From an uncultured Schlesneria sp. (GTDB taxonomy: Bacteria > Planctomycetota > Planctomycetia > Planctomycetales > Planctomycetaceae): DNA of 52,824 nt. The notes below the pieces were generated by a model. The model had not been told where the DNA came from. It did not search any database and worked only from the letters and a program-made list of their open reading frames with translations. The stretch is from positions 1-52,824 of the forward strand of contig CAIOKO010000023.1 of assembly GCA_903858935.1 (NCBI GenBank), read 5' to 3'. Of this stretch, positions 9,912 to 33,975 are shown piece after piece (the first letter of the stretch is position 1; each line of letters opens with the position of its first letter). The position numbers were made by a program, and so were the translations under genes.

Positions 9912-10419
9912 AAAGCCAGACAAGGGACGCCTTGGATTCGTATTTATCTTATGATCCTGTCTATAGACGTTCCACTGGATTTCATCGGATGCATTTTCAC
10001 CAGCGTGCGGAATTTTATCGATCCGAAATCGGATTCGATTGTCGACCCACGCGGTGCCTTGATTGAATTGCGCTCTCAGCCCCCCCACTGGAATCGACAA
10101 GGACCTTGGGGGACTTCGTTTTTCTCTGCTTGATCTGAGCCGATAGATGCTTCTTGCGTATCACCTCGCCCGCCAGATCATGGGCACATCGGAGACTTTT
10201 TTTCGCTTTTCTGACAAGCCACATTGAATCGGTCTTCGTGATTTGCCGGCGACATCTGGCAGAAACATAGAAATTCCCGCCGCGCGATGAGAATTTCGAG
10301 AGGTCGCTTTTTGCCACAAGTTTTCAACGGGACCTGGTTGCTAACGAAGCTCACAGAATTGTAGAGTCGGCGATCTCCCTGTCCGTTCCCAAGAAAACCT
10401 ATCAATGGAAGGCGAAAAT
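9912..10419. other. Gene-free stretch between cfa and the sulfatase
   Basis: 508 bases in which I see no gene. Open frames on both strands are short, lack ribosome sites and give no recognisable protein. Runs of C and G (for example near 10080 and 10110) are present but no clear terminator or repeat. It presumably contains the sulfatase promoter. Confidence 0.35.
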
Positions 10420-12252
10420 ATGAAAGCCATTCTCTGCTGCCTGACTTTCATGCTTGTCGTCAGGACGCCATTTGTCAGCGCGGACGACCGTCCGAATATT
10501 CTCTGGCTGACTTCGGAAGACAACAGTGTCGATTGGGTTGGATGTTATGGAAACCCATACGCTGAGACTCCGCACATTGACAAGCTTGCTTCAGAAGGAT
10601 TTCGATACCTGCACTGTTACGCCAATGCGCCCGTTTGTGCCCCGTCGCGAAGCGGCTGGATCACCGGAGTCTACGCGCTTTCGACCGGCACTCACCAGAT
10701 GCGTAGCCGGTATCCAATTCCACACGAGACGATCAAGTACTACCCTGACTTGCTCAGGCAAGCGGGATACTACGTCGGAAACGTGACTAAAACGGATTAC
10801 AATATCGGCGGACGAGCCGATGGTAATGCATGGGATACTAATAAAGTCGACTGGAATGACCTGCCCCGGCGACAACCGTTTTTCATGGTGATCAACAGCA
10901 CGAAATCGCATGAATCGACGGCATTCGGTGACATCGAAAATACGACTCACAGCCCTGATAAGGTGCGACTGGCGAAATATCACCCGGATATCCCTGAGAT
11001 CCGCAAGAATTACGCACACTACCACGATCAAGTCAAAAAGATGGACGCCGACATCGGTAAGGCATTGGCCGAACTGGAAAGAAGCGGCCTCGCTGAAAAC
11101 ACGATCGTGATTTACAATTCCGACCACGGCGGGGTTTTGCCCCGCAGTAAACGCTGCTTATACAACAGTGGTACGCATTGTCCGCTGATCGTGAGAATCC
11201 CTGAAAAATTCAAGCACCTTCGTCCCGCTGAACCTGGAACAACGATCGACCGGTTGGTCAGCTTCATCGACATGCCCAAAACATGGCTGAGGCTGTGCGG
11301 TGTCGAAAGTCCCACATACATGCAAGGGAAAATCTTTCTTGGCCCGGACACTGAATCTCGGGAGTATCATGTCAGTTTTCGCGGCCGGATGGATGAACGA
11401 ATTGATAACTCACGCGCGATCCGTGATCGGCGGTTTCTTTACATCCGTAACTACATGCCCGAGGTACCGTGGGGGCAACATCTGAACTACCTGTGGACGA
11501 TGAAGGCGACACGAGCGTGGGAGCAGTATCACCAGGCTGGCAAGACTGACAATATCACCGGACAATTTTTCAGAAGCAAGCCGATGGAAGAACTGTTCGA
11601 TACCGACGCCGATCCAGACAACGTGAACAACCTTGCGGTCCAGCCCGAATATGCCAACGAACTCGAGCGGCTGAGCAAAGCTCTGGATGCCTGGCAATTG
11701 GAATATTTCGACGCGGGATTAATTCCTGAAACGGAATTGCTCCGGCGTTCACAGGCGAGCAAAAAGACAAATTACGAACTTGTGCGAGATCCGTCGCTGT
11801 ACGATTTGAAGGGTTACCAGCAGACGGCTGCACTGGCGATGAAACAAGACCCGGCAAACCTGCCAACATTCTACCGAAACCTCAGCCACTCCGATTCCGG
11901 GATTCGGTACTGGTCAGTCATTGGCTGCTTTCAGCTGCAAGGACGTACGAAGCTGGATCACAAATTGATCCGCACTTGTCTGAACGACGATTCCGACCAT
12001 GTGCGGGCGATGGCGGCGTGGACTCTGTACCGAGACGGCGAAATACTGGAAGCACAACAATGCTGGAATCAATTACTCAGCAACAGTTCCTATGCATCTC
12101 TGGAGGTTTTTAACATCATTGACTGGATCGGCGACGGGCACGCTCCTTATGTCCAGGCCATGCGTGCGTGCCACTATGACCACGGAGAATACATTGACCG
12201 AATGAAGTCCTACTTTGGCGTGAGCGATGTCGCAGACACCGAGAAAAAATAA
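10420..12252 (+). CDS. Sulfatase with C-terminal HEAT-like segment
   Basis: A 610-residue exported sulfatase of the alkaline-phosphatase superfamily, hydrolysing sulfate esters, probably of polysaccharides. Residues 1-22 are a signal peptide. PNILWLTSEDN is the metal-binding start, and CAPSRSG at residue 73 is the C-x-P-S-R motif whose cysteine is converted to formylglycine, with further ligands in IYNSDHGG. The closing 130 residues (from about 480) look like HEAT/armadillo-type helices (SDSGIRYWSVIGCF, DSDHVRAMAAWTLY), a fusion frequent in planctomycete sulfatases. GGAAGG seven bases upstream fixes the ATG at 10420. Activation needs a formylglycine-generating enzyme; a distant FGE-domain protein at 32875 is exported and may not be that enzyme. 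The natural substrate is unknown. Confidence 0.92.
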   Translation: MKAILCCLTFMLVVRTPFVSADDRPNILWLTSEDNSVDWVGCYGNPYAETPHIDKLASEGFRYLHCYANAPVCAPSRSGWITGVYALSTGTHQMRSRYPIPHETIKYYPDLLRQAGYYVGNVTKTDYNIGGRADGNAWDTNKVDWNDLPRRQPFFMVINSTKSHESTAFGDIENTTHSPDKVRLAKYHPDIPEIRKNYAHYHDQVKKMDADIGKALAELERSGLAENTIVIYNSDHGGVLPRSKRCLYNSGTHCPLIVRIPEKFKHLRPAEPGTTIDRLVSFIDMPKTWLRLCGVESPTYMQGKIFLGPDTESREYHVSFRGRMDERIDNSRAIRDRRFLYIRNYMPEVPWGQHLNYLWTMKATRAWEQYHQAGKTDNITGQFFRSKPMEELFDTDADPDNVNNLAVQPEYANELERLSKALDAWQLEYFDAGLIPETELLRRSQASKKTNYELVRDPSLYDLKGYQQTAALAMKQDPANLPTFYRNLSHSDSGIRYWSVIGCFQLQGRTKLDHKLIRTCLNDDSDHVRAMAAWTLYRDGEILEAQQCWNQLLSNSSYASLEVFNIIDWIGDGHAPYVQAMRACHYDHGEYIDRMKSYFGVSDVADTEKK

Positions 12253-12388
12253 TCGCTTCCCACAAAAAAGTGGAATTCTCGTCTGCGAATGCTTAATCTA
12301 CTGCTGGAAACATCACAAATCATTTTCACTTCTCAGCCTGAGTCTCTCGAACGGATTCTCGGTTTGATTTCCGCATCGGGAAGTTGAC

Positions 12389-13660
12389 GTGCCCAGTTCG
12401 TCATTGATTAGAAAAAGGACTTTCCGCAGGCGAATTCTCGTCGCATTGCTTTGCCTGTTTACAGGCATCGCAATGGTCTATTTTTGGAGCGACTTTTGCC
12501 TTTGGCGCACAGAAGCTAATTTGACCCGGCGAAATCACATTGCTGCAGAAAACTGGCTGAAACGCAGCCGCTGGTTCAGCCCGGGTTTGGATCAGCGAAC
12601 GTGCCTGCTGCAACTTCGTGTTGCTCGGCGCTCAGGTAACTTTCGAGAAGTTGAACGACTGTTAAATCAAGCATCAAAACTGGGCGTGGCTCGTAAAGAG
12701 CTGGAGCGAGAACGCTGGTTGGCCATGGCGCAGACAAATCAATTCGACGCAATGCAGTCCCATTGGAACGATTTGCTGAAAGATGCTCGCGACGATGAGC
12801 CGGAAATTGCTCGAGCCCATTACACGTGGGCGATGATCTACCATAACCACGATCTCGCCAAGTGGACGCTGGAACTCTGGCACCAGGATTATCCCAAGGA
12901 CCCCGAGCCGATGCTGCTATTGGGGCGCTACTATCAATCGATGACAAGTTGGGAAAGCTCAGAAAAAGCCTATCGCGAGGCCCTGTCGATTGCTCCTGAG
13001 AATGAGGAGTGCCAACTGTCACTGGCAAAAGTCCTGCAAATCCGCTTGAAAACAGATGAAGCAATTCCAATGTTTCAGAAATATCTGCGCCAGCATCCGA
13101 ACGACGCGGCGGCGGTAAGAGGCCTTGCCGAAAGCCTTGCCACTCGCGGTGAAGTGGACAAGGCAATCCAGATGCTTCAAGACACTTTGAAGATTCATCC
13201 CGATGACTTCATGATTCAGAAGTCTTGCGGTGAATTAATGCTTTCCAAAGGAGATACTGTCGGGGCTGCTGCGATTCTGGAAAAGGCCTATCGTCTGATT
13301 CCCGAACATGCGAACCTGGCCAACTCGCTCGCTCGCGCCTGGAAAGCCTGTGGGCGTGCAGCGGAAGCAGAACCTCTTTTCGCGTTTGTCGCGGAGTCGC
13401 AACCAAAGCTCATCGAAATGGGGGCGATGGAAAAACAGTTGAGAGATCAACCTAACAACCTTGAACTGCGAATGAAGATCGCCGAAATCGTGGCCCGGTT
13501 CGTTTCTCGTCGCGATGCCGTCCGCTGGTACGAAAACTTGCTGTTGATCGCGCCGAATTACAAACCAGCACATCAGGAACTGGTCAAGCTCTACCAGTCA
13601 CTCGGAGAAGATAAACTGGCAATGCGTCACGCGAATGGACTTGAACAGGATTCGAAATGA
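12389..13660 (+). CDS. TPR-repeat protein with N-terminal membrane anchor
   Basis: A 423-residue protein starting at GTG 12389. Residues 15-33 are a transmembrane helix or uncleaved signal after a run of Arg/Lys, and the rest is built from tetratricopeptide-like helix pairs (clear from about 180 on, for example SSEKAYREALSIAPENEECQ and DKAIQMLQDTLKIHPDDFMI). The repeats should be outside the cytoplasm and bind partner proteins. Its stop overlaps the start of the next gene by four bases (ATGA), so the two are translationally coupled and probably form a complex. The same pairing, in reverse gene order, recurs at 17157-20224. No enzymatic motif is present. Confidence 0.78.
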   Translation: MPSSSLIRKRTFRRRILVALLCLFTGIAMVYFWSDFCLWRTEANLTRRNHIAAENWLKRSRWFSPGLDQRTCLLQLRVARRSGNFREVERLLNQASKLGVARKELERERWLAMAQTNQFDAMQSHWNDLLKDARDDEPEIARAHYTWAMIYHNHDLAKWTLELWHQDYPKDPEPMLLLGRYYQSMTSWESSEKAYREALSIAPENEECQLSLAKVLQIRLKTDEAIPMFQKYLRQHPNDAAAVRGLAESLATRGEVDKAIQMLQDTLKIHPDDFMIQKSCGELMLSKGDTVGAAAILEKAYRLIPEHANLANSLARAWKACGRAAEAEPLFAFVAESQPKLIEMGAMEKQLRDQPNNLELRMKIAEIVARFVSRRDAVRWYENLLLIAPNYKPAHQELVKLYQSLGEDKLAMRHANGLEQDSK

Positions 13661-15396
13661 TGACTGGTTGCGTGCAAACCAGATGGCCGTTGAGATTGTT
13701 GTGCAGCATCGCGGTGGTCAGCGTGATCTCAGGCTGTTCGCCAACACACCCAATTCAAACCAACGATGGTTCGACGAAAACCAGCGATGTCCGCAACTTC
13801 GAAAAACCGCCTGGAGCAAATATTCAATTTGTGAACATGGCAGAATCGAGCGGTGTGACGTGGATTGCACGCAACGGAGAGGAAAGCAAAAAATCCGCCT
13901 TACTTCAAATGGTTGGTGCAGGTTGCGCTATCGACGACTATGACTGTGATGGGAAACTCGATCTCTTTTTTGCTGGAGGCGGAGTATTTGGCAAGGGGCG
14001 TGAAATCCTGCCAGTCCCGTTTGGTTTGTATCGTCAACATTCGCCATGGAACTATGTTTCCGCATCCAAAGCGGCGGGGTTAGACCCGATTCGTCACTAC
14101 AATCATGGCACGTACACAGCGGACATTGATAACGACGGATTTCCTGACCTGCTGATGACAGGTTGGAATGGACTTCAATTGTTCCAGAACCATGGAGATG
14201 GAACTTTCGAAGATGTCACTCAATCCAGTGGCTTAACCGATTCTCTGTGGAGTACCGCAGCTGGATGGGGAGACTTTAATCGAGACAACGTATTGGATCT
14301 TTACGTCGGTCATTACACGGACTGGTCGCTTGATAACGATCCTGTCTGCGTTGACCCGACGAACAAACAGCGAAATCTTTGCGCTCCAACGGACTTTCAG
14401 GGACTGCCCTGTACGGTTTATCTCAGCAACGGCGACGGAACATATCGTGACGCCAGCGTTGAATTAGGAATCCATGAAATTGGCAAAGTTCTGGGTGTCG
14501 TCATCGCTGATCTCAATGGTGACCTTCAGCCCGATCTTTATGTGGCAAATGACGCGCTACCCAATCACCTTTATGCTTCGCAACCTTCAGGGAATTACCG
14601 AGAAGTCGCGATTGAGTATGGAGTGGCGCTGGGTGAGACCGGTGTTTCTGACGGCAGCATGGGTGTCGATCTTGGTGACCTGGACGGCGATGGCAAAATC
14701 GACATCTGGGTGGCGAACTACGAGCAACAAAGCTTTGCCCTCTATCGTAATTTGGGGAACGAACTTTTCACCCATGCGAGTCGCCCACTTGGGATCACAG
14801 CCGTTGGAACATTAGCAGTCGGATTTGGAACGGTGATTTTTGACGCGGACGGTGACGGATTTTCTGACATTTTCTGTTCGAACGGCCATGTGTGGGCTCC
14901 AGGAAGTGCGACAGAGCGTCGTCAACGCCCCTATTTTTTTCGGAGTGATCGTGGCAACAAATTCTATAACATCGCGACGGATTTGCAGGGTTATTTCAAT
15001 GAACTTCATCTGGGCCGAGGTGCTGCCTGTGGTGATCTGGATGGGAACGGGACTCCAGACCTCGTTGTCACTCACATTAACGAACCCGTAGCACTCTTGA
15101 GAAATGACACTTCCATCGCAAATTGGCTGGAGGTCAAATTGGTAGGACGCGTCAGCAATCGATCGGCAATTGGTGCCAGCGTCTCTGTCAAAGGTAAACG
15201 TGCGAGTCAGATTGGAATTGTCAAAGGAGGCGGAAGCTATCTGTCCACGAGTGATCGAACATTGTTTTTCGGTCTTGGCGACGAGCATTTCGTCGAATCG
15301 CTCGTAGTCCGATGGCCATCGGGCAGAACCACTGAACTTACTGAAGTCGAGTCAGGCCAAAAAATCCTGTTGATCGAGGAAAGAGACGGTCGCTGA
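13657..15396 (+). CDS. CRTAC1-family lipoprotein (FG-GAP/VCBS repeats plus ASPIC/UnbV)
   Basis: A 579-residue exported lipoprotein. The N-terminus has a signal with lipobox VISGC near residue 27, followed by a Ser/Thr linker. At least seven repeats of the D-x-D-x-D-G-x-x-D type are seen (DYDCDGKLD, DIDNDGFPD, DLDGDGKID, DADGDGFSD and others), which form a calcium-stabilised beta-propeller as in integrin FG-GAP repeats. The C-terminal ASPIC/UnbV domain is recognisable from SAIGASVSVKG and VRWPSGRTTELTEV. The family is known for binding and surface roles but has no assigned reaction in planctomycetes. It is coupled to the preceding TPR gene by an ATGA overlap. A second copy lies at 17157. Confidence 0.9.
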   Translation: MMTGCVQTRWPLRLLCSIAVVSVISGCSPTHPIQTNDGSTKTSDVRNFEKPPGANIQFVNMAESSGVTWIARNGEESKKSALLQMVGAGCAIDDYDCDGKLDLFFAGGGVFGKGREILPVPFGLYRQHSPWNYVSASKAAGLDPIRHYNHGTYTADIDNDGFPDLLMTGWNGLQLFQNHGDGTFEDVTQSSGLTDSLWSTAAGWGDFNRDNVLDLYVGHYTDWSLDNDPVCVDPTNKQRNLCAPTDFQGLPCTVYLSNGDGTYRDASVELGIHEIGKVLGVVIADLNGDLQPDLYVANDALPNHLYASQPSGNYREVAIEYGVALGETGVSDGSMGVDLGDLDGDGKIDIWVANYEQQSFALYRNLGNELFTHASRPLGITAVGTLAVGFGTVIFDADGDGFSDIFCSNGHVWAPGSATERRQRPYFFRSDRGNKFYNIATDLQGYFNELHLGRGAACGDLDGNGTPDLVVTHINEPVALLRNDTSIANWLEVKLVGRVSNRSAIGASVSVKGKRASQIGIVKGGGSYLSTSDRTLFFGLGDEHFVESLVVRWPSGRTTELTEVESGQKILLIEERDGR

Positions 15397-15783
15397 AATG
15401 CCGATGTGTCATGCAATTCTCGCCTTGAAGCACGAGCAACACCCACAATAATGCACACATGAACACATTATCGATTTCAAACAATCCACTTTGATCAACT
15501 TTACCGATAAATTCAGCAATTCAAGCGGATTTAAGTTTGACAGCATTATTTACGTTGAGTTAGCTTCTACACAATTCCGAAGCGAGAATTCGGAACGCCG
15601 AATCAATATCACATCAAACTTTGTCAGCATTTCTCTCGTTGAAGAATTTACTTCAAGGAAGGAAGTCTGTTCGGCGGGTCAGTCATTTAATCAATTGTTT
15701 TCGAGTAACGTGGCCTGCAGAGTTTGACGTTTTGGTGATCGGATTCAAAAGTTTGTATTTTTATTTTTTGAGGAGGGTTTCTG
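15397..15783. other. Gene-free leader region of the DUF1559 gene
   Basis: 387 bases without a supported gene; it is AT-rich, as expected for a promoter and leader. The only clear signal is the strong ribosome site GAGGAGGG at 15770-15777, six bases before ATG 15784. I saw no terminator for the upstream CRTAC1 gene. Confidence 0.4.
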
Positions 15784-16875
15784 ATGGCGAAGTCGAAAGT
15801 GCGTGGATTTACCCTGATCGAACTGCTGGTTGTGATTGCAATCATCGCAGTTTTGATCGCGTTGTTGCTGCCAGCAGTGCAGCAGGCTCGTGAGGCAGCT
15901 CGCCGCACGCAGTGTAAAAACAATCTGAAGCAAATCGGATTGGCCTGTCATAACTATCATGACACAGCAAAGCAGTTCCCACAGAACTGGTCCGGTCGAG
16001 GAGCATCAGAAGCGATTCGCGGCGACTGGCAGAACGCTTTCGGAGATTTCGGATGGATGGTGATGGCGCTTCCATACTTCGATCAGGCTCCTCTCTACAA
16101 CCAGTTCAACTTCAATGACAACAACGGCGGTCCTGGTGGTCCAAACCGTTATCCTGGTAGCACCGCTGACAACAACAGTCGTGGTTGGACTTCGCAGCAG
16201 AACACCAATGCAGCGACAACCATCCTTCAAGCTGTCATGTGTCCAAGCAATCCTCAATCCGCGAAGCAGTACGCTGGCGTTGCCGGTTGCTCCGGTGGAA
16301 ATACCTACAACAACACTCCAGTTGGTCGTTCCGATTATGTGGGAAGCCTGGGATTCGAACGGGCTGACTGGCAAAACTGCCTTGCCTCAGATCAAGGCGG
16401 AAAAGGGATCCCTCTCCCATGGAGCAACACAGACAACATTCCTGGTACGGTCCATAATGGCTGGGGCGAAGGAAACGGCGGAAACTCGACCGGCCCGGCA
16501 TACCTGGGGTTGATGAACGGCTGTTTCAGCTGTTCGGGTACTTGCAAAATCAGCGATATCGTCGACGGAACTTCGAACACGATTCTCGTCATGGAAGACC
16601 ACCACTGGTCACAAGGTCCTTCGCAGCCGAGCCAAGTTGCCGGAACCGTTGGTTGGGCTGGTCCGATGCAGGTCGCTTCGACCGCTCACCTGGTTAACCA
16701 GAAGTATGGTTATCCCGACGGAAATCAATGCCATGGTATCAGCAGTACTCACGTCGGTGGTGCTCACATCCTGATGGCTGACGGATCTGTCCGATTTCTT
16801 TCTGAGAACATCGGTGTGACTGTGTTGCAAGCAATCTCGACCCGTGCAGGTGGCGACATCGCTGGCGATTTCTAA
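15784..16875 (+). CDS. DUF1559 prepilin-like protein
   Basis: A 363-residue member of the planctomycete-expanded DUF1559 family. The N-terminus [20 protein letters not shown] is a classical type IV prepilin signal: cleavage after Gly8, Phe at +1, Glu at +5, then a hydrophobic helix. [17 protein letters not shown] and [15 protein letters not shown] are the family hallmark, and [20 protein letters not shown] is the typical C-terminal motif. It should be processed by a prepilin peptidase and assembled or displayed at the membrane. An unusually strong ribosome site and the perfect terminator right after it suggest a well-expressed single transcript. It sits between two CRTAC1/TPR pairs. The role of this family is not established. 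Confidence 0.93.
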
Positions 16876-16915
16876 GATCGCTCAGTACAAAAATCGTCAA
16901 TGATTCAATTGAATT

Positions 16916-16953
16916 CTCGTCACCGGCAGTGATGCCGGTGACGAGACTTTTTT
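16916..16953 (+). terminator. Rho-independent terminator of the DUF1559 gene
   Basis: A perfect 13-bp stem, CTCGTCACCGGCA at 16916-16928 and its complement at 16933-16945, closes a GTGA loop and is followed by a run of six T (16948-16953). It lies 41 bases after the DUF1559 stop, so it should end that transcript before the second CRTAC1 gene. Confidence 0.9.
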
Positions 16954-16981
16954 CGTATGGGTTCGAAAAAACGACACCATC

Positions 16982-17056
16982 GTGAACTCGGAAATTCATT
17001 AGCCCGACGCGCAAGCGAGGGGCTTACTGAGTTCACAATCATTTGAGCGTCGGGCT
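16982..17056. repeat. Interlocked inverted repeats (pseudoknot-like palindromic element)
   Basis: Two inverted repeats interleave. GTGAACTC at 16982-16989 pairs with GAGTTCAC at 17029-17036, and AGCCCGACGC at 17001-17010 pairs with GCGTCGGGCT at 17047-17056, giving the order A-B-A'-B'. The AGCCCGACGCGCAAGCGAGG segment resembles a short repeat I associate with planctomycete intergenic regions (memory, not checked). It lies between the DUF1559 terminator and the second CRTAC1 gene. Confidence 0.6.
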
Positions 17057-17156
17057 GATCTGTTAATGTGGTCCAGGGGACTTCGGTTTAACTCCCGATT
17101 GAAAAACGATTTTGTGTCGAATCTCAGAAAATTTACGGTCAATCCGGGCTAACACC

Positions 17157-18956
17157 GTGGTCAGCCAGAAACCTTTCCTGATGGGCTTGCTGCTTTGCGT
17201 GTTCACAGGCTGTGGGCAAAACGGCAGTTCGAGCACGCAGGACACCCGACCGGCTGAAATCAAACCAGTTAAAGCCACAAACTCACAGATAGACCTTTCC
17301 AAAGATAAGGATGCCTCGGCCGAAATTCCGTCCGTGGTTTCGCCACGTGTCGCAACAAAGCCCGTCAGCCGTCTCACAACGTTTCCACATTTCGAAGATA
17401 TTGCGGAAAAGATCGGCGTCTCATTCACCTACCTGAACGGAGCCTCGGGTAAGTCTCTGATGGTGGAATCAACCGGAGGAGGAGCCGGGTGGTTCGACTT
17501 TGATGGTGATGGACTATTGGATCTTTACCTTTGCCAAGGTGGAAATCCTGCCAGTGAAAACCGTCCATACGAACCACTGGATCAGCTTTTTCGCCAGATT
17601 GAGCCCGATCGTTTTGTGGCGGTCACCGAGTTCGCTGCGGTGTTTGAACGCTCTTACGGTCAAGGTGTCGCGATTGCCGATTTTGACGACGATGGATTCG
17701 ATGATGTGTACATCACCAACGTCGGTCCAAATGCGCTATTCAAAAACCAGGGGGACGGAACGTTTATTGACGTCAGCTCCGAGGCTGGTGTCGCCAATCC
17801 CCTCTGGAGCAGCAGTGCCGCCTGGGGAGATCTCGATGGCGATGGTGATCTGGACCTCTATGTTTGTAATTACGTTGACTATGATCCCTATCATCCGATC
17901 CCCTGTGGAAATGGGGGTAAGCCGGGAACATGCCATCCCGAAACCATGGATGCTGTCCCCGACGAATGTTACTTTAATCGAGGGAACGGAACCTTCCTTC
18001 CTGAAGCCCAGTCGAGGGGTCTCTTCGGACCACTCAATAAGGCATTGGGTGTCGTGATTGCTGATATGAATAACGATGGCATGCCCGACGTTTACGTCAC
18101 AAACGACACAACGCCCAACTTTCTGTTCATCAATCAGGGAAGTGGTCAATTCGTCGAATCAGGAACGCAACTTGGATGTTCAGTCAGTCGTGATGGCCTG
18201 CCTCAAGCCAGCATGGGGGTTGCATTGGGCGACTTCGATCAAAACGGCTGGCTGGACCTTTACTGCACGCATTTCACGCAGGAATCGAACACCCTTTACA
18301 AGAATCTTGGACCTACGGGTTTTCAGGATGTGACGGGAATCGTTGGACTGCACGCACCGACACTCAAGTACCTTGGGTTCGGCACGATCATGGCGGATTT
18401 CAATCAGGATGGTCATGAGGACATCTTCGTCTCGAATGGCCACATTGACGACTGGCGTGAAAGTGGAAAACTTTGGCAGATGGAACCGCAAATCTTCAGT
18501 TACGAGGGTCCTCGATTTGTGGATTGTGGCCCGATGGCCGGCGACTTTTTCAAAAAGACTGTCATTGGTCGAGGAGTCGCCCGAGCAGACTTTGATAACG
18601 ATGGTGACTGGGATCTGGCGGTGGTCCATCAGAACACACCGACGGCAATTCTGCGAAACGATTCGTCACGGGGAAATTGGTTAAAACTAAGATTTGTCTG
18701 TACGACAAATCGTCGAGGCTGGGGAACCCGCGTTCGCCTTCGACAGGGTGATCGAAATTTGGTCCAGGAGATGGCGGGAGGAACCAGCTATGCGTCCGCT
18801 CACGAAGCAGCGATCATCTTCGGATTGGGTGAAAATTCCGCTGCGGTGCACTTGGAAATTCGCTGGCCTGACGGAGAATTGCAGTCAATCGACGACGTGA
18901 AGACGAATCAGGAACTGGTTCTCAGACAACCTCGCAAAGAAGACTTGCGGAATTGA
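17157..18956 (+). CDS. CRTAC1-family lipoprotein (second copy)
   Basis: About 599 residues with the same architecture as the gene at 13657. A signal with lipobox VFTGC precedes a polar linker, then FG-GAP/VCBS repeats with acidic calcium loops (DFDGDGLLD, DFDDDGFDD, DLDGDGDLD, DMNNDGMPD, DFNQDGHED, DFDNDGDWD), then an ASPIC/UnbV domain (GWGTRVRLRQGDRN, EIRWPDGELQSIDDV). The start is uncertain: GTG 17157 gives a compact lipoprotein signal, the frame is open from TTG 17112, and ATG 17181 would leave the signal too short. No good ribosome site is visible for any. The stop overlaps the next gene by four bases (TTGA), coupling it to a TPR protein. A surface or periplasmic binding role is inferred. 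Confidence 0.88.
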   Translation: MVSQKPFLMGLLLCVFTGCGQNGSSSTQDTRPAEIKPVKATNSQIDLSKDKDASAEIPSVVSPRVATKPVSRLTTFPHFEDIAEKIGVSFTYLNGASGKSLMVESTGGGAGWFDFDGDGLLDLYLCQGGNPASENRPYEPLDQLFRQIEPDRFVAVTEFAAVFERSYGQGVAIADFDDDGFDDVYITNVGPNALFKNQGDGTFIDVSSEAGVANPLWSSSAAWGDLDGDGDLDLYVCNYVDYDPYHPIPCGNGGKPGTCHPETMDAVPDECYFNRGNGTFLPEAQSRGLFGPLNKALGVVIADMNNDGMPDVYVTNDTTPNFLFINQGSGQFVESGTQLGCSVSRDGLPQASMGVALGDFDQNGWLDLYCTHFTQESNTLYKNLGPTGFQDVTGIVGLHAPTLKYLGFGTIMADFNQDGHEDIFVSNGHIDDWRESGKLWQMEPQIFSYEGPRFVDCGPMAGDFFKKTVIGRGVARADFDNDGDWDLAVVHQNTPTAILRNDSSRGNWLKLRFVCTTNRRGWGTRVRLRQGDRNLVQEMAGGTSYASAHEAAIIFGLGENSAAVHLEIRWPDGELQSIDDVKTNQELVLRQPRKEDLRN

Positions 18957-20224
18957 TAACGAACGCCCCAGTGAACAACGAGAACAAAGTGGACGCATCG
19001 TTTGCCCGTCCTGACATTGAACATCCGACACCAGCGAGGCCGCTTACCGGAACTCGTCGCTGGTGGATTCTTCCGCTGGCAATCCTGATTGCTGCTGCCG
19101 TTCCGATCGGTTACCTGTTTCAAACGGTCATGCATAACCGGGCAATCGCGGCCTACGAACAACAGTGCCAGGATTTGAAGCTTAAAAAAAACTGGACTGA
19201 ACTGGCAAAAGTTGCGGAATCCTGGTCCAAAATTGAACCCGGGACCGCCGATCCATGGCTCTATCGCGGTGAGGCAGCGGAAGAGCTGAGCGATTGGAAG
19301 TCGATGATTCAACATCTTGATCGGATTCCTCGGACCGACTCACGAGCCGTACCGGCGTTGTTAAAAAAATCGATCGTTGAATTCGAAAAGTTGAATCGAC
19401 CTTTTGATGGGGCCAGGACGTGTGATCAAGTTCTCGAGCTGAATCCGCAAGTGACAGCGGCGCACAAGCAGACCGTCTTTTTTTACATGATGACCCTGCA
19501 GCGGAAAGAAGCCCTGCGTCGGGTCCGTCGTGCAATTCGACTGAGCCGTGAATCCCCCGAAACTTATGTCTTTCTGGTCAGCGTCAGCTGGCTCAATCCA
19601 GCCTCACTTTATCACAATAACACGATCTGGCTCGAATCAGATCCGGAAAGCGAGATTTTTGAAGTCGCGCGTGCGATGCCCGTTTACACCACGCTGGCAA
19701 AGAACGATCCGAAACATGCTGCGGTGGTGGAACATATCCCGACGGCTGAAAAATTGCTGGAAAAATACCCGCATAATCCAGAGTTACTGTCGTTTTTTAT
19801 CAGCCTGAGTATTTCGAATGGCGAACTGGAGCGGGTTCAAGAACTGGTGCAAGCTTTTCCGCGGGATATCGGAGAGACAGATCCTCGATACTGGCGAGCA
19901 CGGGCGTGGTGCGAAGAAGCACTTGGGGATGTCGACCAGGCAGAAAAATCGCTGCGACGCGGATTTGCTCTGGACCCGTATTGGTGGGTCATTCACTTTC
20001 AATTACATGACCTGCTGCGGCGACAACAGCGGCTTGATGATGCCGCCTATTTCTTTAAAGTCTATAAATTGTCCAAGGACTTGAGTACTGAAATCACAAG
20101 TCTGAATAAATCTCCTGAAAGCCTCGACGAGCAAAATTTTTGTCGAAAATTGCTGGTACTGGCGGAGTTGATCGAAGATGATGAAGTTGTCAACACGTTG
20201 AAACGGCGTGTCGTAACACAATGA
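18953..20224 (+). CDS. TPR-like membrane-anchored protein (partner of second CRTAC1)
   Basis: A 423-residue protein, the same length as the TPR protein at 12389. A polar N-terminus of about 35 residues precedes one transmembrane helix (about 38-58, WWILPLAILIAAAVPIGYLF), followed by helical repeats with TPR-like spacing (SWSKIEPGTADPWLYRGEAAE, SLRRGFALDPYWWVIHFQLH). TTG 18953 is used because it overlaps the upstream stop as TTGA; GTG 18971 is the next option. In this module the CRTAC1 gene comes first and the TPR gene second, the reverse of 12389-15396. The repeats should project into the periplasm. No catalytic motif is seen. Confidence 0.75.
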   Translation: MITNAPVNNENKVDASFARPDIEHPTPARPLTGTRRWWILPLAILIAAAVPIGYLFQTVMHNRAIAAYEQQCQDLKLKKNWTELAKVAESWSKIEPGTADPWLYRGEAAEELSDWKSMIQHLDRIPRTDSRAVPALLKKSIVEFEKLNRPFDGARTCDQVLELNPQVTAAHKQTVFFYMMTLQRKEALRRVRRAIRLSRESPETYVFLVSVSWLNPASLYHNNTIWLESDPESEIFEVARAMPVYTTLAKNDPKHAAVVEHIPTAEKLLEKYPHNPELLSFFISLSISNGELERVQELVQAFPRDIGETDPRYWRARAWCEEALGDVDQAEKSLRRGFALDPYWWVIHFQLHDLLRRQQRLDDAAYFFKVYKLSKDLSTEITSLNKSPESLDEQNFCRKLLVLAELIEDDEVVNTLKRRVVTQ

Positions 20225-20324
20225 ATCTCATCAAGTTTGTTTTGCGGGCGAAAACCGAATGCTGTCACCAGGCAGCGTTGAGGAGTCGTTCGCTTTGTCT
20301 CGTTTTATCGAAAGGAAGTTTGAA

Positions 20325-20804
20325 ATGCGTCGATTCAGCAGCCTGGTTCTGATTTGCTTATGGGGATGTTCATCCGGAGGCCCAGCGCCGCTTCCTCTTT
20401 ACCCGGTGACAGGGAATCTTAAAGTTGATGGCAAACCGCTCGAGGCAACGGCCGTGTCATTGATGCCTGTCGACGCAACGTCCAAAGCCAAACCGGCCGT
20501 CGGCACTACGGACAAAGAAGGCAATTTCAAAATTGCAACAAATGGGGATCGCGGTGCCGCAGCCGGTCCGTATAAGGTCGTGCTCGGTGGGGCCACCGTG
20601 GAAGATTCGAGCACATCCCTAGAGAAGTTGACGCCAGCACAGCAGGCTGCAGAAGTCTCAAAAAGACAGGGAGATCTCGTCAAGAACAAAGGAATGCCCC
20701 TTTCGAAGAAGTACAAATTCCCCAGCGAATGGGCTGATCCAAAAACCTCTCCGAAAACATTTGAAGTGACGACGGGAACGAACGTACTCAATATCGACAT
20801 CTGA
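20325..20804 (+). CDS. Small lipoprotein, carboxypeptidase-regulatory-like (transthyretin-like) fold
   Basis: A 159-residue lipoprotein of a type that commonly accompanies DUF1559 genes in planctomycetes. The signal ends in LWGC (lipidated Cys near residue 15) and is followed by SSGG. YPVTGNLKVDGKPLEATAVS and GTTDKEGNFKIAT are typical of the beta-sandwich found in carboxypeptidase regulatory-like domains, and AAAGPYKVVLGG closes it. GGAAG before ATG 20325 supports this start over the frame start at 20259. It lies 100 bases after the TPR gene and 113 before the cytochrome. It probably stays in the periplasmic leaflet as a structural or binding protein. Confidence 0.8.
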   Translation: MRRFSSLVLICLWGCSSGGPAPLPLYPVTGNLKVDGKPLEATAVSLMPVDATSKAKPAVGTTDKEGNFKIATNGDRGAAAGPYKVVLGGATVEDSSTSLEKLTPAQQAAEVSKRQGDLVKNKGMPLSKKYKFPSEWADPKTSPKTFEVTTGTNVLNIDI

Positions 20805-20917
20805 AACGATTTCGTAGCAAGATCATATGCACGAGGTTGCGCATATCGCCTGACAACAAACCACGTCCAGAATCTGGAAACAGGTAATTCGGTCGGCAGT
20901 TGAAATTGAAGTCGGCA

Positions 20918-22840
20918 ATGACGCATCGAGACGAGGCTCCCATCGAGACGACATCTGGTGGCAAAAAGGCAGCCACGACGACGATCCGACTTGTCGTCGT
21001 GGCCATCCTTCTCACGCTCATTGGTGTCGTGTTCTGGAGAGGGCGCGTAACTTCGCCCCCCCTGAAGGAAAGTATTCCAGCGAATTCATTGACGGTGGCG
21101 AATCAACAAATCGACAACGACCTTCCCGTTGTCGTTAAACCGACACCTCCTCCCGAAGGCTATATCGGAAGTCAAGCTTGTGCAGATTGCCATCCGCAGA
21201 TTGCCGAGCGTTATAACCGGTCGGCGATGGGAAGAACGCTGGCAAAGATTGACCAAACGCCGCCCCCTCATGAAGACTACGACACAAATACGTCGTTCAA
21301 CCGGGGAAATCGTTCGTACCGCGTTGAGAAAAACAATAACCGAGTCTGGCATCATGAATCGGTTTCCGATGACGAAGGAGTGATCTACGACCAGGGAGAA
21401 GAGATCCAATATGCCATGGGGTCGAATACGAGAGGCCGCTCGTACCTGATCTGGCGCGATGGAGCGATGTTCATGTCCCCCATTTCCTGGTATGCCAAAG
21501 ATGGATGGGATCTGTCCCCCATGTATCTGCCAGATCGCCATGTTCGCTTCAGCCGTCGGATTACTGACGCCTGTATCGTCTGTCATAGTGGACGAGTCTC
21601 GCATCAGACAGGACGTGAGCATTTTTTTCCCCAGCCGGTATTTCATGAAGAATCGATCGGTTGCGAACGCTGCCATGGGCCTGGTCAAAACCACGCGGAT
21701 TTTCGACGCCAAATCAAACCGGATGGGATTGATCCGATCCTGTCCCTTTCTGAGTTGCCACCCGCGGAGCGAGACGCGGTCTGCTTTCAATGTCATTTTC
21801 AGGGTGAAGAACGGATTTTACGTTATGGACGAACGGAAACCGATTTCCGGCCAGGGATGAAATTCAGCGATGTCTGGGCGGTTTTCATGAAAGGGAACGG
21901 TACAGACGGCGGAGCCACGATGGCAGTCTCGCAAGCCATGCAGATGCACACGAGCCGTTGTTATCAGACAAGCGGCGCTCGCCTCGGCTGCGCGTCGTGC
22001 CATGATCCTCACGAGTCACCAGATGCTGTTCATCGTGTCGACTTTTTCAACGATCGGTGTCTTCACTGCCACAAAGAACAAGGGTGCTCACTTCCCATCG
22101 AGAAACAGACGGCTGAACCTGCCAGCGGGTCATGCATCCACTGTCACATGCCTCGTCTCAACGCCAGCAACATCCCTCACACGAGTCAAACGGATCACCG
22201 GATTTTGCGGGACCCTGATCGTTTGAAATCCGCAAAGACCGGCAACGAATACACGATGTTCGAGGAAGCAGGAGCGATGATTCCTGAGATCGAGCGAGTT
22301 CGCGTCAAAGGCCTGATGTACTCACTGGTCGCCGAGAAAAAAGGTGATCGTAAATTCGCCGAGGAGGCGCTCAAGCTTCTGGAACAGGCCCAGAAGTCGA
22401 TGCCTGATGATGAATCAATACAACAAGCTCTGGGTGGGGTCTTGACCATGTCAGGCCGCATGCAAGCTGCGGAATCCCTGTCTAAAAAAACGATCAAACA
22501 ATTTCCGCTTAACGAAGTCGCGTTATTGCGTCTGGCAAATGCGGCTCACGATGCAGGACACTATCTCGAAGCGGAAGAATTGTTTAAGCCGTTAATGCAG
22601 CTGAATCCCTGGATGGCAGTGACACATGGACGTCGCGCTCATGCCCTGGGGATGCTGAATCGGTTTGACGCGGCGTTCGAAGAAGCGGAACAGGCTTTGA
22701 AACTTGATCCGACCATCCTGCCGCTCTACGGCTGGCTCAGCCAGGCCTACGCCAGTCGTGGAAATCGCGAGAAAAGCCAGTACTACAAACATCAGGCAGA
22801 GCGACTCGTCAAACGCCTGGCACCTTCGAAACCACAATGA
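20918..22840 (+). CDS. Seven-haem c-type cytochrome with C-terminal TPR repeats
   Basis: A 640-residue membrane-anchored cytochrome. A transmembrane helix near residues 23-42 anchors a periplasmic region containing seven CxxCH haem sites (CADCH near residue 88, then CIVCH, CERCH, CFQCH, CASCH, CLHCH and CIHCH near 406), with further His residues as possible distal ligands. From about residue 460 to the end are TPR-like repeats (FAEEALKLLEQAQKSMPDDE, RFDAAFEEAEQALKLDPTIL). This fits the cytochrome c554-like multihaem group fused to a protein-interaction module. ATG 20918 is preferred to TTG 20900. It closes the CRTAC1/TPR cluster, suggesting the cluster handles electrons or a redox-active surface substrate, but that is inference; no specific donor or acceptor can be read. 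Confidence 0.88.
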   Translation: MTHRDEAPIETTSGGKKAATTTIRLVVVAILLTLIGVVFWRGRVTSPPLKESIPANSLTVANQQIDNDLPVVVKPTPPPEGYIGSQACADCHPQIAERYNRSAMGRTLAKIDQTPPPHEDYDTNTSFNRGNRSYRVEKNNNRVWHHESVSDDEGVIYDQGEEIQYAMGSNTRGRSYLIWRDGAMFMSPISWYAKDGWDLSPMYLPDRHVRFSRRITDACIVCHSGRVSHQTGREHFFPQPVFHEESIGCERCHGPGQNHADFRRQIKPDGIDPILSLSELPPAERDAVCFQCHFQGEERILRYGRTETDFRPGMKFSDVWAVFMKGNGTDGGATMAVSQAMQMHTSRCYQTSGARLGCASCHDPHESPDAVHRVDFFNDRCLHCHKEQGCSLPIEKQTAEPASGSCIHCHMPRLNASNIPHTSQTDHRILRDPDRLKSAKTGNEYTMFEEAGAMIPEIERVRVKGLMYSLVAEKKGDRKFAEEALKLLEQAQKSMPDDESIQQALGGVLTMSGRMQAAESLSKKTIKQFPLNEVALLRLANAAHDAGHYLEAEELFKPLMQLNPWMAVTHGRRAHALGMLNRFDAAFEEAEQALKLDPTILPLYGWLSQAYASRGNREKSQYYKHQAERLVKRLAPSKPQ

Positions 22841-22862
22841 GTTTGATGAGTTTCCCTGAGCA

Positions 22863-23036
22863 TCAAAAAGCCGCCCCTTCCGTGCGGTACCGCCTCCAGT
22901 AGAAAGCAATCGCGAGCAAACCGTTAACGGCACTTAAAAGAATCGTTGGCGCGAGAGCACTTTCTCGCGAAGCCTTGCCGAACGGACATTTCCTCCCGAT
23001 ACTGATAACGTGAGCGGTTGGATTCGTGATCGCCAT
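22863..23036 (-). CDS. Possible small membrane protein (57 residues)
   Basis: An open frame of 58 codons on the minus strand. ATG 23036 is preceded, in its own direction, by AAAGGA with an eight-base spacer. The first 25 residues are polar, and residues 29-47 (APTILLSAVNGLLAIAFYW) could form one transmembrane helix, followed by RRYR. It lies between the cytochrome and the large TPR gene, opposite to both, and its start is 53 bases from the start of the TPR gene. There is no homologue I recognise, so it may be chance. Confidence 0.3.
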   Translation of the reverse strand: MAITNPTAHVISIGRKCPFGKASRESALAPTILLSAVNGLLAIAFYWRRYRTEGAAF

Positions 23037-23089
23037 GCTTCACATCCTTTCGTCGCTTGCAATTCCCACTGAAATCAAAGGACCAACCG

Positions 23090-26000
23090 ATGAAGACCCG
23101 GTTGTTAATGTGGCCAGTCTGGCTGTTGTTGATTGCATTCTCGACACGCCCGCTTGTGGCAGAAGAACCGTACCTGGAATTTCTGCAGGGGCTGCGTGAA
23201 CGAAATTATTTCGATTATGCCCTGTTCTACCTCGATCAACTTGCACAACGACCGAACTTGCCTGCAGAGATGCGGCAACTTATTCCTTATGAAAAAGCAG
23301 TCACGCTGCGCGAAAACGCCAAAACGCTACGCAACCCCGAAAAGCAGCTTGAACAGCTCGATCAAGCGCTGGCGTTTCTTGACCAGTTCGTACAGGAAAA
23401 CCCCGATCACTCTTATAGTGGCGACGCAAACTCCGATCGGGCTGAAATTCTGAGGCAAAAGGGTGAGGTCGAAATATTCCGGTCAAAATCTCCCGCAAAT
23501 CAGGGGAGCAAAGCGGATTTTCAGCGACGCGCACGTGAATTGGTGCAAAAGGCACGTGACGTCGTGAAGCTCGCATTCGACCAGCACGAAGCGGCTTTCA
23601 AAAAGTTCCCGCCTTATATCGATGAACAAAAAGAGCCTAAGCTTCATGCCGATCGAGTACGTGTTGAACGTAGCATGATTCTTGAATCTTTGAGTCTGGG
23701 AAAATGTACCTACGACGAAGCGCAGACCTACGATCCTTCAGCTCCACAGTTCAAGCAACTGCTGAACCAGGCAGCGGATGAATTCGAAAAGATGCATCAA
23801 AGGTATCGCAGCCAGATGGGAGGGCTACATGCCCGGGCATGGCAGGGAAAATGTTTTGAAGAACAGGGAGATTTACAGAAGGCACTCGGGATATACAACG
23901 AATTGCTCGACCACCCGGGTGACGATCCCCTGCTCCAGAGCCTGAAATCACAGACGCTGCAATTTAAACTGATCTGTTTATATGCACGAAACGACTACCA
24001 ATTGATCGTCGACCTGGCAGACGACTGGCTGAAGAAGAACGCAAGCGAGTCCAGAACATCGGTTGGCCTGGGAATTCAGTGGGAGCAAGCTCGCGCTCTC
24101 GATGCGTTAGGCGACAATCGAAATCTTCCCAAACCAGATCAAGAACGGTTCTGGCGACAGGCTCGTACGACCGCCCAGCAGATCAGCCGTTTTCCAGGCG
24201 AATACAAAGACGTCTCACTGTCGTTGGTACAGCGACTGCAGGTAAAGCTCGGTGGTAAAGAAAAGAAGCCCGAGGACTTCGAGACGGCGTTTGGACTGGG
24301 ACGTCAATCCTTCAATTCGGCTCAAGAAGTCAAAAAAGAGTTGGACGCGGCAGTCAGGACACAAAAACCTGCCGAAGAAATGGTGCGGTTGAAGCAAGAC
24401 TGGTCAAACGAGCTGAACGACGCCGCGAAAAACCTTGAACTGGCCATGGTGTTGACCAATCGCCGCGACAACGCAAAAGATGTGGCGACGGCTCGACTGC
24501 TACTCGCCTACACGAATTTCTATCTCCATCGCAATTATGAGGCAGCGATTCTGGCACAGTTTGTGGCTCGCACGACAAGCGATGACGAAGGAAGTGTCGC
24601 GCTGGACGCGGCCCACATGGCCATGGCAGCCTTTGTTCAAGCGTACAACGACAACAAGGTCGAACCGGATAAAAAGCAGGATGAAATGCGGCTGACGATT
24701 AAGGCTGCCAATCTGATCGCAAGTCGCTGGCCCGAAAGTGACAAAGCTAACGAGGCTCGGATGACACTCGGTTCATTGTACACGTCTGCAAAAAAGCCGG
24801 TCGAAGCGGCTGAATGGTTCAGTAAGGTTCCCGAGAACGACGCAAAATATCCTGAAGCACAATTGGCCGCCGGGCAGGCTTACTGGCTTGCTTTCGGTTC
24901 CTCTGTTGGAATGCCGCAAGACTCGCGACCAAGCCCCGAAAAACTTGCAGAATGGAAAGCTGCGGCAGACCGGTACTTGCGATCCGGTATCGAAAAACTT
25001 TCCGCAACTCTGCCAAAAGAAGGGACAGTGCCACTGGAACTCGTCAGTGCAAAGATCTATCTCGCGGAAATCCTGCTCAGCCAGGGAAAAGAGACTGACG
25101 CAATCAAGATGCTTCAGGACGACCCTCAATCTGTCATTAAGGCGATTGCGGTCGCCGACGAATCTCAACGACCTGAAAAGGGAATCCACGGTCGTTTGAT
25201 CGCCAAAACTGTTTACAAGTTGCTGTTACGGTCATATATCGGCCTGGGTCCGGACAAGCTCAATGATGCCCGGGCAACAATGAAGATTCTTGAAGCGATC
25301 GCATCAGGAGATCCCAGTTCAGACCTGACTCACCTCTATGTTGACCTGGGAAAAGGGTTAAAGACTGAATTGGAACGGTTTCGCAGTAACGGTGAAACAG
25401 AACGCTTTAACAAGCTGATGGAAGCCTTCGAGACTTTTCTTGACGACATGTACAAGAAACAGGAAGGCCAGACGCTGGGATCGCTAAGCTGGATCGGAGA
25501 AACCTATTTTGCCTTGGGTGAAATCTCAACGGATGCTTCGAAAACCGCCAGTTATTACGACCGGGCCGCTTCGGCCTTTAACGGGGTTTTGACCCGCGCA
25601 CAGGCCGATTCGGCATTTGCCACCGCCGATCAATTGCTGAACGTGAAAGTTCGACTGGTTCGATGCAACCGTTTGAAAAAGGACTTCAGCACTGCCGAAA
25701 AGCTGCTCAACGAAGTCCTTAAGGCTCGAGGTAACGATCTGCGAACTCAGATTGAAGGTGCCTATGTCTTTCAAGACTGGGGATCAAACGGTGACAACAA
25801 GAAGTTTGTCACCGCGATTGCAGGTAACAAAGAAATCGGGTTGTGGGGTTGGGGAGGAATCGCAAAAAAGATTCAACAACAGAAGAATTTCTCGGAACGG
25901 CCAGACCTGGTCGACAGTTTTCTTGATGCACGCTACGGCGTTTCACTTTGTCGTTTCCGATATGGCAAAGAGCTGGCCCCGAAAGAAAAACAAAAGGCAC

Positions 26001-26632: not shown

Positions 26633-26750
26633 AACTTAGAAAACTCTGATCGCTGGTATCACGGCGTTGCCGGCAAAAAATGGGACCGATAAGCCTGATA
26701 TGTCCCATGAGACCTGTAAAATTGATCAACATAGAAATAAAGGGACCGCA

Positions 26751-27812: not shown

Positions 27813-28033
27813 GGAAATTACCGTTGCTCAGAAACCCCTGAAGTGAATGGAGAAAGACAAGGTTAAACGGAGGTGGATCGCCCCTGTGCTCGCATTGGAA
27901 TTTCGCGTTCCCGGCATAATCCTCTGGCATCGGAAGCAATGGATACTTAGAATCGCGAAACTGGTCTGATCGCGTCGGACAGGTTACGGATGACTGCTGA
28001 GACGAAGGAGTGTTTCACGTGAAGGGAATTACA

Positions 28034-28909: not shown

Positions 28910-28934
28910 TCGTAACAGTGGGCTTTGTGACGTA

Positions 28935-28987
28935 GCATGGGTGCTAGCCCGTGCCGCACGACAGTTTAAGCGGGCTGATGCCCACGC
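28935..28987. repeat. REP-like doublet in inverted orientation
   Basis: Two imperfect hairpins in the gap before the ExbD gene. GCATGGG (28935-28941) and CCCGTGC (28948-28954) form the first, and GCGGGC (28970-28975) with GCCCACGC (28980-28987) the second. The reverse complement of the second unit matches the first over most positions, so this is one repeat unit present twice in opposite orientation, as in bacterial REP/BIME elements. It sits inside a likely operon. Confidence 0.55.
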
Positions 28988-29017
28988 AACAAAAGCTGAC
29001 AACGATGGAGCGTTCAG

Positions 29018-29494: not shown

Positions 29495-29496
29495 CG

Positions 29497-29997
29497 ATGA
29501 AGCTGCAAAATCGTTTGAGTGGGCCGACTAAGGTCCAAATCCCGATGGTTCCGATGATCGACATTGTCTTTCTGTTACTGATTTTCTTCATGCTGAATCT
29601 GAAAATTGTTTCCCCTGAAGGGAATTTTAATATCAATTTGCCCATCAGTGCGCCGACCGCTGCAGCTGCCGAACTCACCCCGCCCGAGATCAAAGTCAGT
29701 ATGGTTTCTGATCGCCAGGGAAATCTGATTCAACTTACTTTGGGCTCCAAAAACCTTGGAAACGACGAAATGGCGTTTGAGCAGTTGAATAAAGAGATCC
29801 TGAAAATCATTGGCAGACCAGGAAACCCCTTGGCCAAGGATATCGAAGTTGAAATCGATGCCGACTACGAAACCCAATACAAGTACGTCGTTAAAGCAAT
29901 TTCAAAATGTACCGGCAGGCTGGATCCAGGTTCCAAACAGGTGGCTAGATACGTCGAAAAAATCAAGTTCGCACCACCGCACAAACCAAAAGCGTGA
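29497..29997 (+). CDS. ExbD/TolR-family protein (second)
   Basis: A 166-residue paralogue of the preceding protein. [20 protein letters not shown] is the conserved proton-carrying helix with its Asp, followed by a periplasmic domain ([20 protein letters not shown] onward). The gene starts two bases after the preceding stop with GAGGAGG inside the end of that gene, so the pair is translationally coupled. The upstream open frame starting at 29437 is not used, because the ribosome site clearly serves ATG 29497. This gene ends the five-gene unit started by the large TPR protein. Confidence 0.9.

Positions 29998-32876: not shown

Positions 32877-33975
<1,099 letters not shown>

Follow-up and report, generated by a model that had tools for sequence, protein, structure and literature searches.

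A conserved planctomycete gene cluster joining two distinct CRTAC1/TPR modules, a DUF1559 pilin, and, frequently, a seven-haem cytochrome

Human CRTAC1 is secreted, and we know of no settled role for the bacterial CRTAC1 proteins. We analyzed a gene cluster of an uncultured Schlesneria sp. (Planctomycetota; assembly GCA_903858935.1) in which two genes of this family (CRTa and CRTb) lie with two genes for TPR proteins (TPR1 and TPR2), a DUF1559/SBP_bac_10 pilin gene, a small transthyretin-like (TTR) gene, and a gene for a seven-haem cytochrome (CYT). The window, i.e., the whole stretch of 52,824 nucleotides (contig CAIOKO010000023.1), is contig C23 of a 7.93-Mb genome. Among the closest described systems, the available part of PMC8567305 counts 91 proteins with N_methyl and SBP_bac_10 domains in Tuwongella immobilis, whose genes often have neighbors encoding type I or type II signal peptides, and that of PMC10632474 gives P. 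limnophila a largest paralogue group of 68 DUF1559 pilins. The window pilin shares N_methyl and SBP_bac_10 with these expanded pilins; the available part of PMC8567305 names no CRTAC1, TPR, or cytochrome partners for them, whereas here the pilin has specific partner families, and four of the parts evolve together. Clusters with hydrazine synthase (HZS)-like alpha and beta-gamma subunits, as far as the accessible text of PMC12758564 describes them, have in common with the window that the CRTAC1 protein has multihaem neighbors of c554 type, in Planctomycetota and elsewhere, but here we saw no HZS-like subunits, and a seven-haem TPR cytochrome and a pilin are present. The ten proteins that we scanned against Pfam (positions 10405-27809) include neither a second cytochrome nor a non-FG-GAP propeller, HZS-like sequences themselves not being compared directly. 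MtrAB-type conduits and the porin-multihaem cytochrome clusters of Verrucomicrobia (PMC5615132, in its available part) also have a multihaem protein, and the CXXCH region of CYT partly aligns with 6r2q_A; here, however, seven haems are combined with TPRs, and a search confined to the ten scanned proteins found no beta-barrel porin family. The bacterial integrin-type beta-propellers, in the passages available from PMC3192720, share the predicted FG-GAP calcium propeller, to which the proteins studied here add a UnbV_ASPIC domain and a TPR partner. CRTb aligns over residues 183-611 with solved human CRTAC1 (PDB 9etn, E 9.1e-23), from which it differs as a bacterial candidate lipoprotein encoded in a gene cluster. 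The original prediction that the combination is not described as a system agrees with our literature search, in which the combination was not found in titles, starts of abstracts, and passages (subscription journals are mostly outside its coverage), and the gene set looks like an undescribed envelope machine or module.

The cluster is a real, conserved, and co-evolving planctomycete envelope module, with the cytochrome as a frequent but dispensable partner. The order TPR1-CRTa-pilin-CRTb-TPR2-TTR on one strand was found in the window, L040 (G069, g1), L215 (G025, g16), and L271 (G047, g6), where L, G, and g denote loci or stretches, genomes, and genera, respectively, and g1 is the genus of the window. 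The neighborhood is thus conserved in related genomes, the six-gene order being kept across g1, g6, and g16. G045 carries the same gene set, divided by a contig end (L277 and L039). Rearranged versions exist in L272 (G049, g1), where the TPR1-CRTa pair is placed after TTR, and in L228 (G052, g1), where the second module is inverted; in G081 (g37), TTR-TPR2-CRTb lies on one contig and TPR1-CRTa on another.

The cluster divides into module A (TPR1-CRTa) and module B (pilin-CRTb-TPR2-TTR), CYT being a frequent partner of B. TPR1 and CRTa form same-strand pairs in L040, L104, L215, L228, L271, L272, L275, L276, and L277, and are on opposite strands in L278 and L279; in L104 (from the window genome), L276, L278, and L279, they occur without CRTb but with a pilin within the fetched stretch. 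TPR1-type genes (E 1e-60) are present in 10 of 100 genomes of the order. The TTR gene also directly follows TPR2 in L040, L215, L271, L272, and L274. The description of the two TPR/CRTAC1 pairs as mirrored did not survive comparison. CRTa and CRTb are 36% identical and not each other's closest relatives: in a FastTree tree of 174 CRTAC1 proteins (which carries long-branch warnings), CRTa joins L040, L104, L215, and L228 to make up a starred group of five, and CRTb, for which the identical copy of L039 stands in, is in a clade of 39 rows. TPR1 and TPR2 do not match each other significantly (best E 0.049, across 41 columns) and are not recognizable as paralogues. Separate CRTAC1 clades and TPR proteins without detectable kinship rule out a mirrored duplication, so that the cluster looks like two different modules joined. 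The pairing, TPR1 with CRTa and TPR2 with CRTb, is nevertheless fixed rather than random, and this half of the expectation about paralogues and partners stood. Both pairs have four-base overlaps, as originally noticed (ATGA at 13657-13660 and TTGA at 18953-18956), which recur in both pairs of L040 and the single pair of L104 and are absent in L215 and L271. The shared length of 423 residues is correct for TPR1 and TPR2 as called, but not as a signal: the GTG and TTG starts were assigned automatically, same-type TPR proteins elsewhere range from 394 to 470 aa, and starts and lengths differ between loci, which rules out the length as meaningful.

We searched 100 genomes of the order for CRTb-type (E up to 1e-140), TPR2-type (E up to 1e-25), and CYT (E up to 1e-20) proteins. 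CRTb-type proteins occur in 45 genomes (58 matches), TPR2-type proteins in 43 (66 matches), and CYT in 62; CRTb and TPR2 types coincide in 42 genomes. A TPR2-type gene lies within 10 kb of 53 of the 58 CRTb matches, and a CRTb-type gene within 10 kb of 58 of the 66 TPR2 matches. When close CYT are defined as the 81 strongest CYT matches (E up to 3.2e-93, in 53 genomes), 43/58 CRTb matches have a close CYT within 10 kb, and 40/81 close CYT have a CRTb match within that distance. Among the 15 CRTb genes without CYT, those in L283 and L285 are followed by a CYT-like beginning at the contig end, and L284 has a shorter, more distant seven-haem protein. CYT is within 6 kb of 6/7 CRTb-clade genes vs. 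6/89 others (the window CRTa among the latter) in a sample of nine genomes with nearly complete UnbV coverage (weak matches of ~1240 aa mostly omitted), plus some loci of G002 and G007; two more CRTb-type genes are found with CYT (L201) and without it (L215). L107 has pilin-CRTb-CYT in tandem twice with identical pilin and CRTb scores, a recent duplication or an assembly artefact.

Judging from their tree distances, CYT, CRTb, the pilin, and TPR2 co-evolve. Pairwise correlations of tree distances among the four are 0.50-0.62 (24-29 loci) without species control. In the set controlled by UvrB, the raw correlations are 0.46-0.60 (22-23 loci per pair), those with UvrB 0.01-0.25, and partial Mantel correlations given UvrB 0.46-0.62 (0/2000 permutations as high), which rules out the species tree as the only source of the agreement. 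Since the trees agree mutually and little with UvrB, the parts have moved or been duplicated together and did not merely track the species marker. Each locus contributed one CRTb (that nearest CYT), the nearest pilin, and the nearest TPR2-type protein. The UvrB test leaves out G045 (a near copy of the window genome), G004 (UvrB not recovered; 24/25 were recovered), the named loci L107, L112, L124, and L126, the near-duplicates L043, L046, L051, and L091, and CRTb-clade loci without CYT within 8 kb (such as L228), and it includes partial UvrB of G088 (414 aa) and G094 (562 aa). Greedy gene calls underlie the CRTAC1 tree, the clade and CYT counts, the tree correlations, the hairpin counts, the labels on the CYT tree, and part of the pairing evidence; the caller overlooks CRTb and one pilin in L215, CRTb and CYT in L201 and L076, and CRTAC1 in L186. 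The counts within 6 kb of the 97 CRTAC1 genes and of the CYT relatives given below use all open reading frames (ORFs).

We recorded the all-ORF neighbors of CYT relatives within 6 kb in 60 stretches picked from the order of the window (most strong CYT matches and some weak ones, contig-end cases being partly omitted) and in named records, limited to the best 79 loci of a longer list. In the own order, CRTAC1 is near 45 and a pilin near 42 of 65 CYT. Among the best 79 loci, the numbers are 16/41 and 19/41 in other named Planctomycetota, and 12/24 and 0/24 in Acidobacteriota. Loci labelled "CRTAC1 and pilin near" cluster together when mapped on the CYT tree (19 changes vs. 36.5 when shuffled, 0/500 as low). 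The haem domain (E 1e-40) is present in 24/199 genomes drawn from the phylum. Acidobacteriota loci with a seven-haem CYT near CRTAC1 and no pilin are L140, L146, L151, L152, L158, L160, L169, L171, L176, and L179, and at most of these listed loci TPR proteins are close as well. The two that were scanned (L152 and L169) have an outer-membrane barrel with CarboxypepD_reg close by and further TPR proteins; we take such barrels of Acidobacteriota to be of Oar type. CYT relatives also occur in records titled Kuenenia and Shewanella (L134, L181, and L177), titles that may reflect misassigned bins.

A number of observations weigh against the cytochrome-associated module as read here. The fetched stretches of L215 and L271, which have the same block, and of the rearranged L228 and L272 contain no cytochrome, and G047 and G049 have no CYT match at E 1e-20 genome-wide. 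The claim that the cluster ends in a cytochrome is therefore correct for the window and fails for the six-gene blocks of G025 and G047 and the rearranged blocks of G049 and G052; these four loci rule out the cytochrome as a constant member, and it is not obligatory. Within the order, 41/81 close CYT have no CRTb-type gene within 10 kb (some are at contig ends), 15 genomes carry a close CYT and no CRTb match, and the Fisher test on the joint presence of CRTb and TPR2 (2e-23) is uncorrected for relatedness. Beyond it, loci labelled "CRTAC1 near, no pilin" show hardly any clustering on the CYT tree (21 changes vs. 23.1 when shuffled, 52/500 as low), and CRTAC1 is within 6 kb of 0/11 CYT from Bacteroidota, Fidelibacterota, Rhodothermota, Ignavibacteriota, Gemmatimonadota, and Pseudomonadota among the best 79 loci.

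CRTAC1 genes in general show the same associations. In nine genomes with 97 CRTAC1 genes in total, DUF1559 lies within 6 kb of 68 of these genes, TTR of 43, CYT of 16, and a different multihaem protein of 10. A pilin is present in 43 of 66 CRTAC1 loci against an expectation from pilin density of ~0.15; the density counts may be "at least" values in some genomes, which would raise the expectation. The CRTAC1 protein is fused to TPR in 41/97 cases, and another 28 have an adjacent same-strand TPR gene. In the window genome, 8/15 are fused according to our own TPR models (9 when a distant protein of 1,253 aa is counted), and the six fusions checked by Pfam have TPR, FG-GAP, and UnbV in a single chain. 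These fusions are the best evidence on this point and make it probable that the TPRs and the propeller work as a single unit. Another CRTAC1 clade is accompanied by a different cytochrome: in 8 of the 10 rows, the immediate neighbor is a protein that has four or more CXXCH and lies outside the seven-haem type. This protein has five CXXCH in L103, and a C554 domain and TPR in L103 and L195, the sole two scanned; the five-haem protein gave a single weak match, cytochrome c552, in a PDB search.

CYT has the CXXCH sites of a multihaem c-type cytochrome at residues 94, 225, 255, 295, 364, 387, and 412, which align in 80/80 proteins (selected for having seven). His is also conserved at 265, 371, and 433 (80/80) and at 427 (79/80). 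Positions 108, 151, and 345 vary in the family (Ser at 108 and Gln at 345 in the window protein), so that, from the alignment only, the window protein has five conserved candidate distal His for seven haems. No NCBIfam multihaem model exceeds its cut-off in the window CYT (GSU2203 61.6 of 325 bits; DmsE 50.1 of 192.2 bits), and with these scores and seven CXXCH, not ten, CYT does not belong to the MtrA/DmsE or GSU2203 decahaem families. Because a profile search of PDB with the whole CYT returned only TPR-type proteins among the best 60 matches, we used the haem domain, which matched 6i5b_A, 6r2q_A, 6qvm_A, and chains of c554, MccA, and NrfA. We take 6i5b_A to be OcwA and 6r2q_A to be MtrA of the MtrCAB complex (the PDB listing names cystathionine beta-synthase).

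The hairpin behind the pilin gene starts ~40 bases past the gene end and is also found after the pilin in L040. By our own rule, hairpins follow 31/93 pilin genes vs. 2/154 CRTAC1, 1/46 TPR, and 1/63 CYT genes, and shuffled pilin flanks have none (0/50). The region has 13 terminator-like sites vs. 12.6 when shuffled, and what carries weight is therefore solely how strong this hairpin is, along with the 31/93 comparison; a promoter scan was uninformative (3 sites vs. 7.0 in shuffles). The hairpin probably splits the cluster into more than one transcription unit, which weakens a single seven-gene operon as an explanation, and it suggests that the pilin is made in excess of the genes behind it. 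Strong terminator-like hairpins after DUF1559 genes are also seen where same-strand cluster genes come next.

Planctomycetes have tens to ~100 DUF1559 pilin paralogues, of which a defined subset is now tied to specific, co-evolving partners, and CRTAC1 proteins are linked both to TPR scaffolds and to multihaem cytochromes with TPRs, of which there are two distinct kinds; the role of planctomycete pilins becomes a testable question. In the assembly that we propose, the TPR protein would be in the inner membrane, facing the periplasm, and would hold the calcium propeller of CRTAC1 in the manner of the natural TPR-CRTAC1 fusions. Since the hairpin would end some of the transcripts early, the pilin would probably be made in excess; it would form a short pseudopilus, or its tip, and the propeller and TTR proteins may attach there. 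The anchored cytochrome could dock on this assembly, perhaps via its TPRs, and would pass electrons between the pool in the periplasm and anything bound by the propeller or the pilin. We give about an even chance to the reading of two conserved envelope modules plus a cytochrome, assembled in this manner. Its composition, gene order, pairings, tree agreement, fusions, haem motifs, and hairpin are observed; localization, contacts between the proteins, the pseudopilus, the surplus of pilin, electron flow, and a function in redox chemistry or attachment are inferences.

A bolder version would make the cluster a new class of envelope electron-transfer machine, in which a pilin-like filament, calcium-propeller/TPR scaffolds, and a dedicated seven-haem cytochrome provide pilus-linked redox contact with surfaces or polymers without a porin conduit, the CRTAC1-cytochrome core being reused with TonB-type barrels in Acidobacteriota; we consider this unlikely. 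Somewhat better placed, and a genuine possibility, is a surface-attachment or macromolecule-capture apparatus whose pilin and integrin-like propellers bind glycans or surfaces, with the cytochrome a recruited accessory (folding, sensing, or oxidative chemistry on the polymer). The neighborhood counts are in its favor, a multihaem gene (CYT or other) being within 6 kb of at most 26/97 CRTAC1 genes vs. a pilin near 68/97, as are the CarboxypepD_reg outer-membrane barrels at two Acidobacteriota loci and the pili-like fibers of planctomycetes that bind dextran in the available part of PMC5394234, which leaves the fiber protein unnamed. The CRTAC1 tree argues the other way: the 39-row clade is largely tied to the seven-haem protein, and 8/10 rows of another clade adjoin a multihaem protein of a different kind, so that these two clades seem to have a dedicated link to redox chemistry.

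A periplasmic redox enzyme of the c554/NrfA/HAO superfamily whose substrate is a small N- or S-compound, and for which CRTAC1 serves as a subunit or in maturation, would resemble the HZS-like clusters, where CRTAC1 genes of other bacteria lie between or beside the alpha and beta-gamma genes (PMC12758564, available part), and would fit the five conserved candidate distal His for seven haems in the alignment of CYT. It is improbable, given that no chain named hydrazine synthase is among the 41 PDB sequences matched by the haem-domain profile at E up to 1, that positions 108, 151, and 345 vary, unlike a conserved active site, and that Pfam finds no propeller domain in CYT. The TPR proteins could instead be NrfG/CcmH-like chaperones that aid haem attachment to the adjoining apocytochrome: TPR1 matches TPR_CcmH_CycH above the cut-off (54.9 vs. 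42 bits), a match not shown by TPR2. NCBIfam NrfG reaches 26.8 of 306 bits in TPR1, and no haem lyase family is among the ten scanned proteins. TPRs accompany CRTAC1 (the 41/97 fusions), while a multihaem gene is near no more than 26/97, which leaves the chaperone very improbable. That the genes are chance neighbors from very abundant families, of which the window genome holds 64 DUF1559 and 15 UnbV genes, is scarcely credible in view of the excess of pilins near CRTAC1 genes (68/97) or loci (43/66) over the ~15% expected, the order conserved over genera, and the agreement of the trees.

All seven genes are on the + strand at the positions first given for them, and Pfam and NCBIfam agree with the gene content (Table 1). 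CRTa and CRTb have FG-GAP repeats followed by UnbV_ASPIC, as the CRTAC1/ASPIC-UnbV family does (FG-GAP_3, five stretches each; UnbV_ASPIC, 62.7 and 59.6 bits vs. a cut-off of 23.4), and the pilin belongs to the DUF1559 family (PF07596 169.6, N_methyl 34.1, and H-X9-DG 36 bits, each above cut-off). Lipoboxes and hydrophobic segments were called by pattern tests rather than by signal-peptide predictors. Lipid anchoring of the two propellers is accordingly a prediction from their lipobox patterns, and the small lipoprotein exists as a gene whose product is negative in the lipobox pattern test and has an atypical box. A lipobox pattern is present in 20/24 CRTb of cluster loci; the CYT N-termini of these 24 loci have a lipobox pattern (11), a hydrophobic segment only (11), or neither (2). 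Among the ten scanned proteins (10405-27809), to which this search was confined, the secretin, ATPase, and platform protein of a type II secretion or type IV pilus operon are absent.

Table 1 Features of the window and of the second multihaem-CRTAC1 pair
Feature	Position	Strand	Evidence
TPR1, predicted membrane-anchored TPR protein, partner of CRTa	12389..13660	+	423 aa from GTG; Pfam TPR_19 E 1.5e-21; hydrophobic segment, residue 16
CRTa, CRTAC1-type (FG-GAP propeller + ASPIC/UnbV) candidate lipoprotein	13657..15396	+	Pfam; lipobox ISGC; 5 DxDxDG-like motifs
DUF1559/SBP_bac_10 pilin-like protein, N_methyl + H-X9-DG	15784..16875	+	Pfam, NCBIfam
Intrinsic-terminator-like hairpin 3' of pilin gene	16915..16946	+	14 pairs, 9 GC, then CTTTTTT
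CRTb, CRTAC1-type candidate lipoprotein, cytochrome-linked clade	17112..18956	+	Pfam; lipobox FTGC; 7 DxDxDG-like motifs
TPR2, predicted membrane-anchored TPR protein, partner of CRTb	18953..20224	+	423 aa from TTG; Pfam TPR_19 E 1.2e-10; hydrophobic segment, residue 38
Small transthyretin-like (TTR) protein, 181 aa, possible lipoprotein	20259..20804	+	TTR-52 E 0.0023, below cut-off; atypical box LWGC
CYT, predicted membrane-anchored seven-haem c-type cytochrome with C-terminal TPRs	20900..22840	+	seven CXXCH; hydrophobic segment, residue 27
Second multihaem + CRTAC1 pair	L103:4098-9285 (G000:C73); also L186, L195, L208, L214, L222, L226		separate CRTAC1 clade

Downstream of the cluster (window 23057-29997) are a large TPR protein and a second TPR protein, both scanned, together with what we take to be genes of TolQ/ExbB and ExbD type. 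The large TPR gene also adjoins the cluster in L039 and L040 and is unlabelled at the other loci of that comparison. An ORF at 31851-32885 presumably encodes an ApbE-type flavin transferase. Elsewhere in the window genome, L098 (G000:C3:12500-32400) has a seven-haem TPR protein of 1060 aa with three CRTAC1 genes, a pilin, and a small protein.

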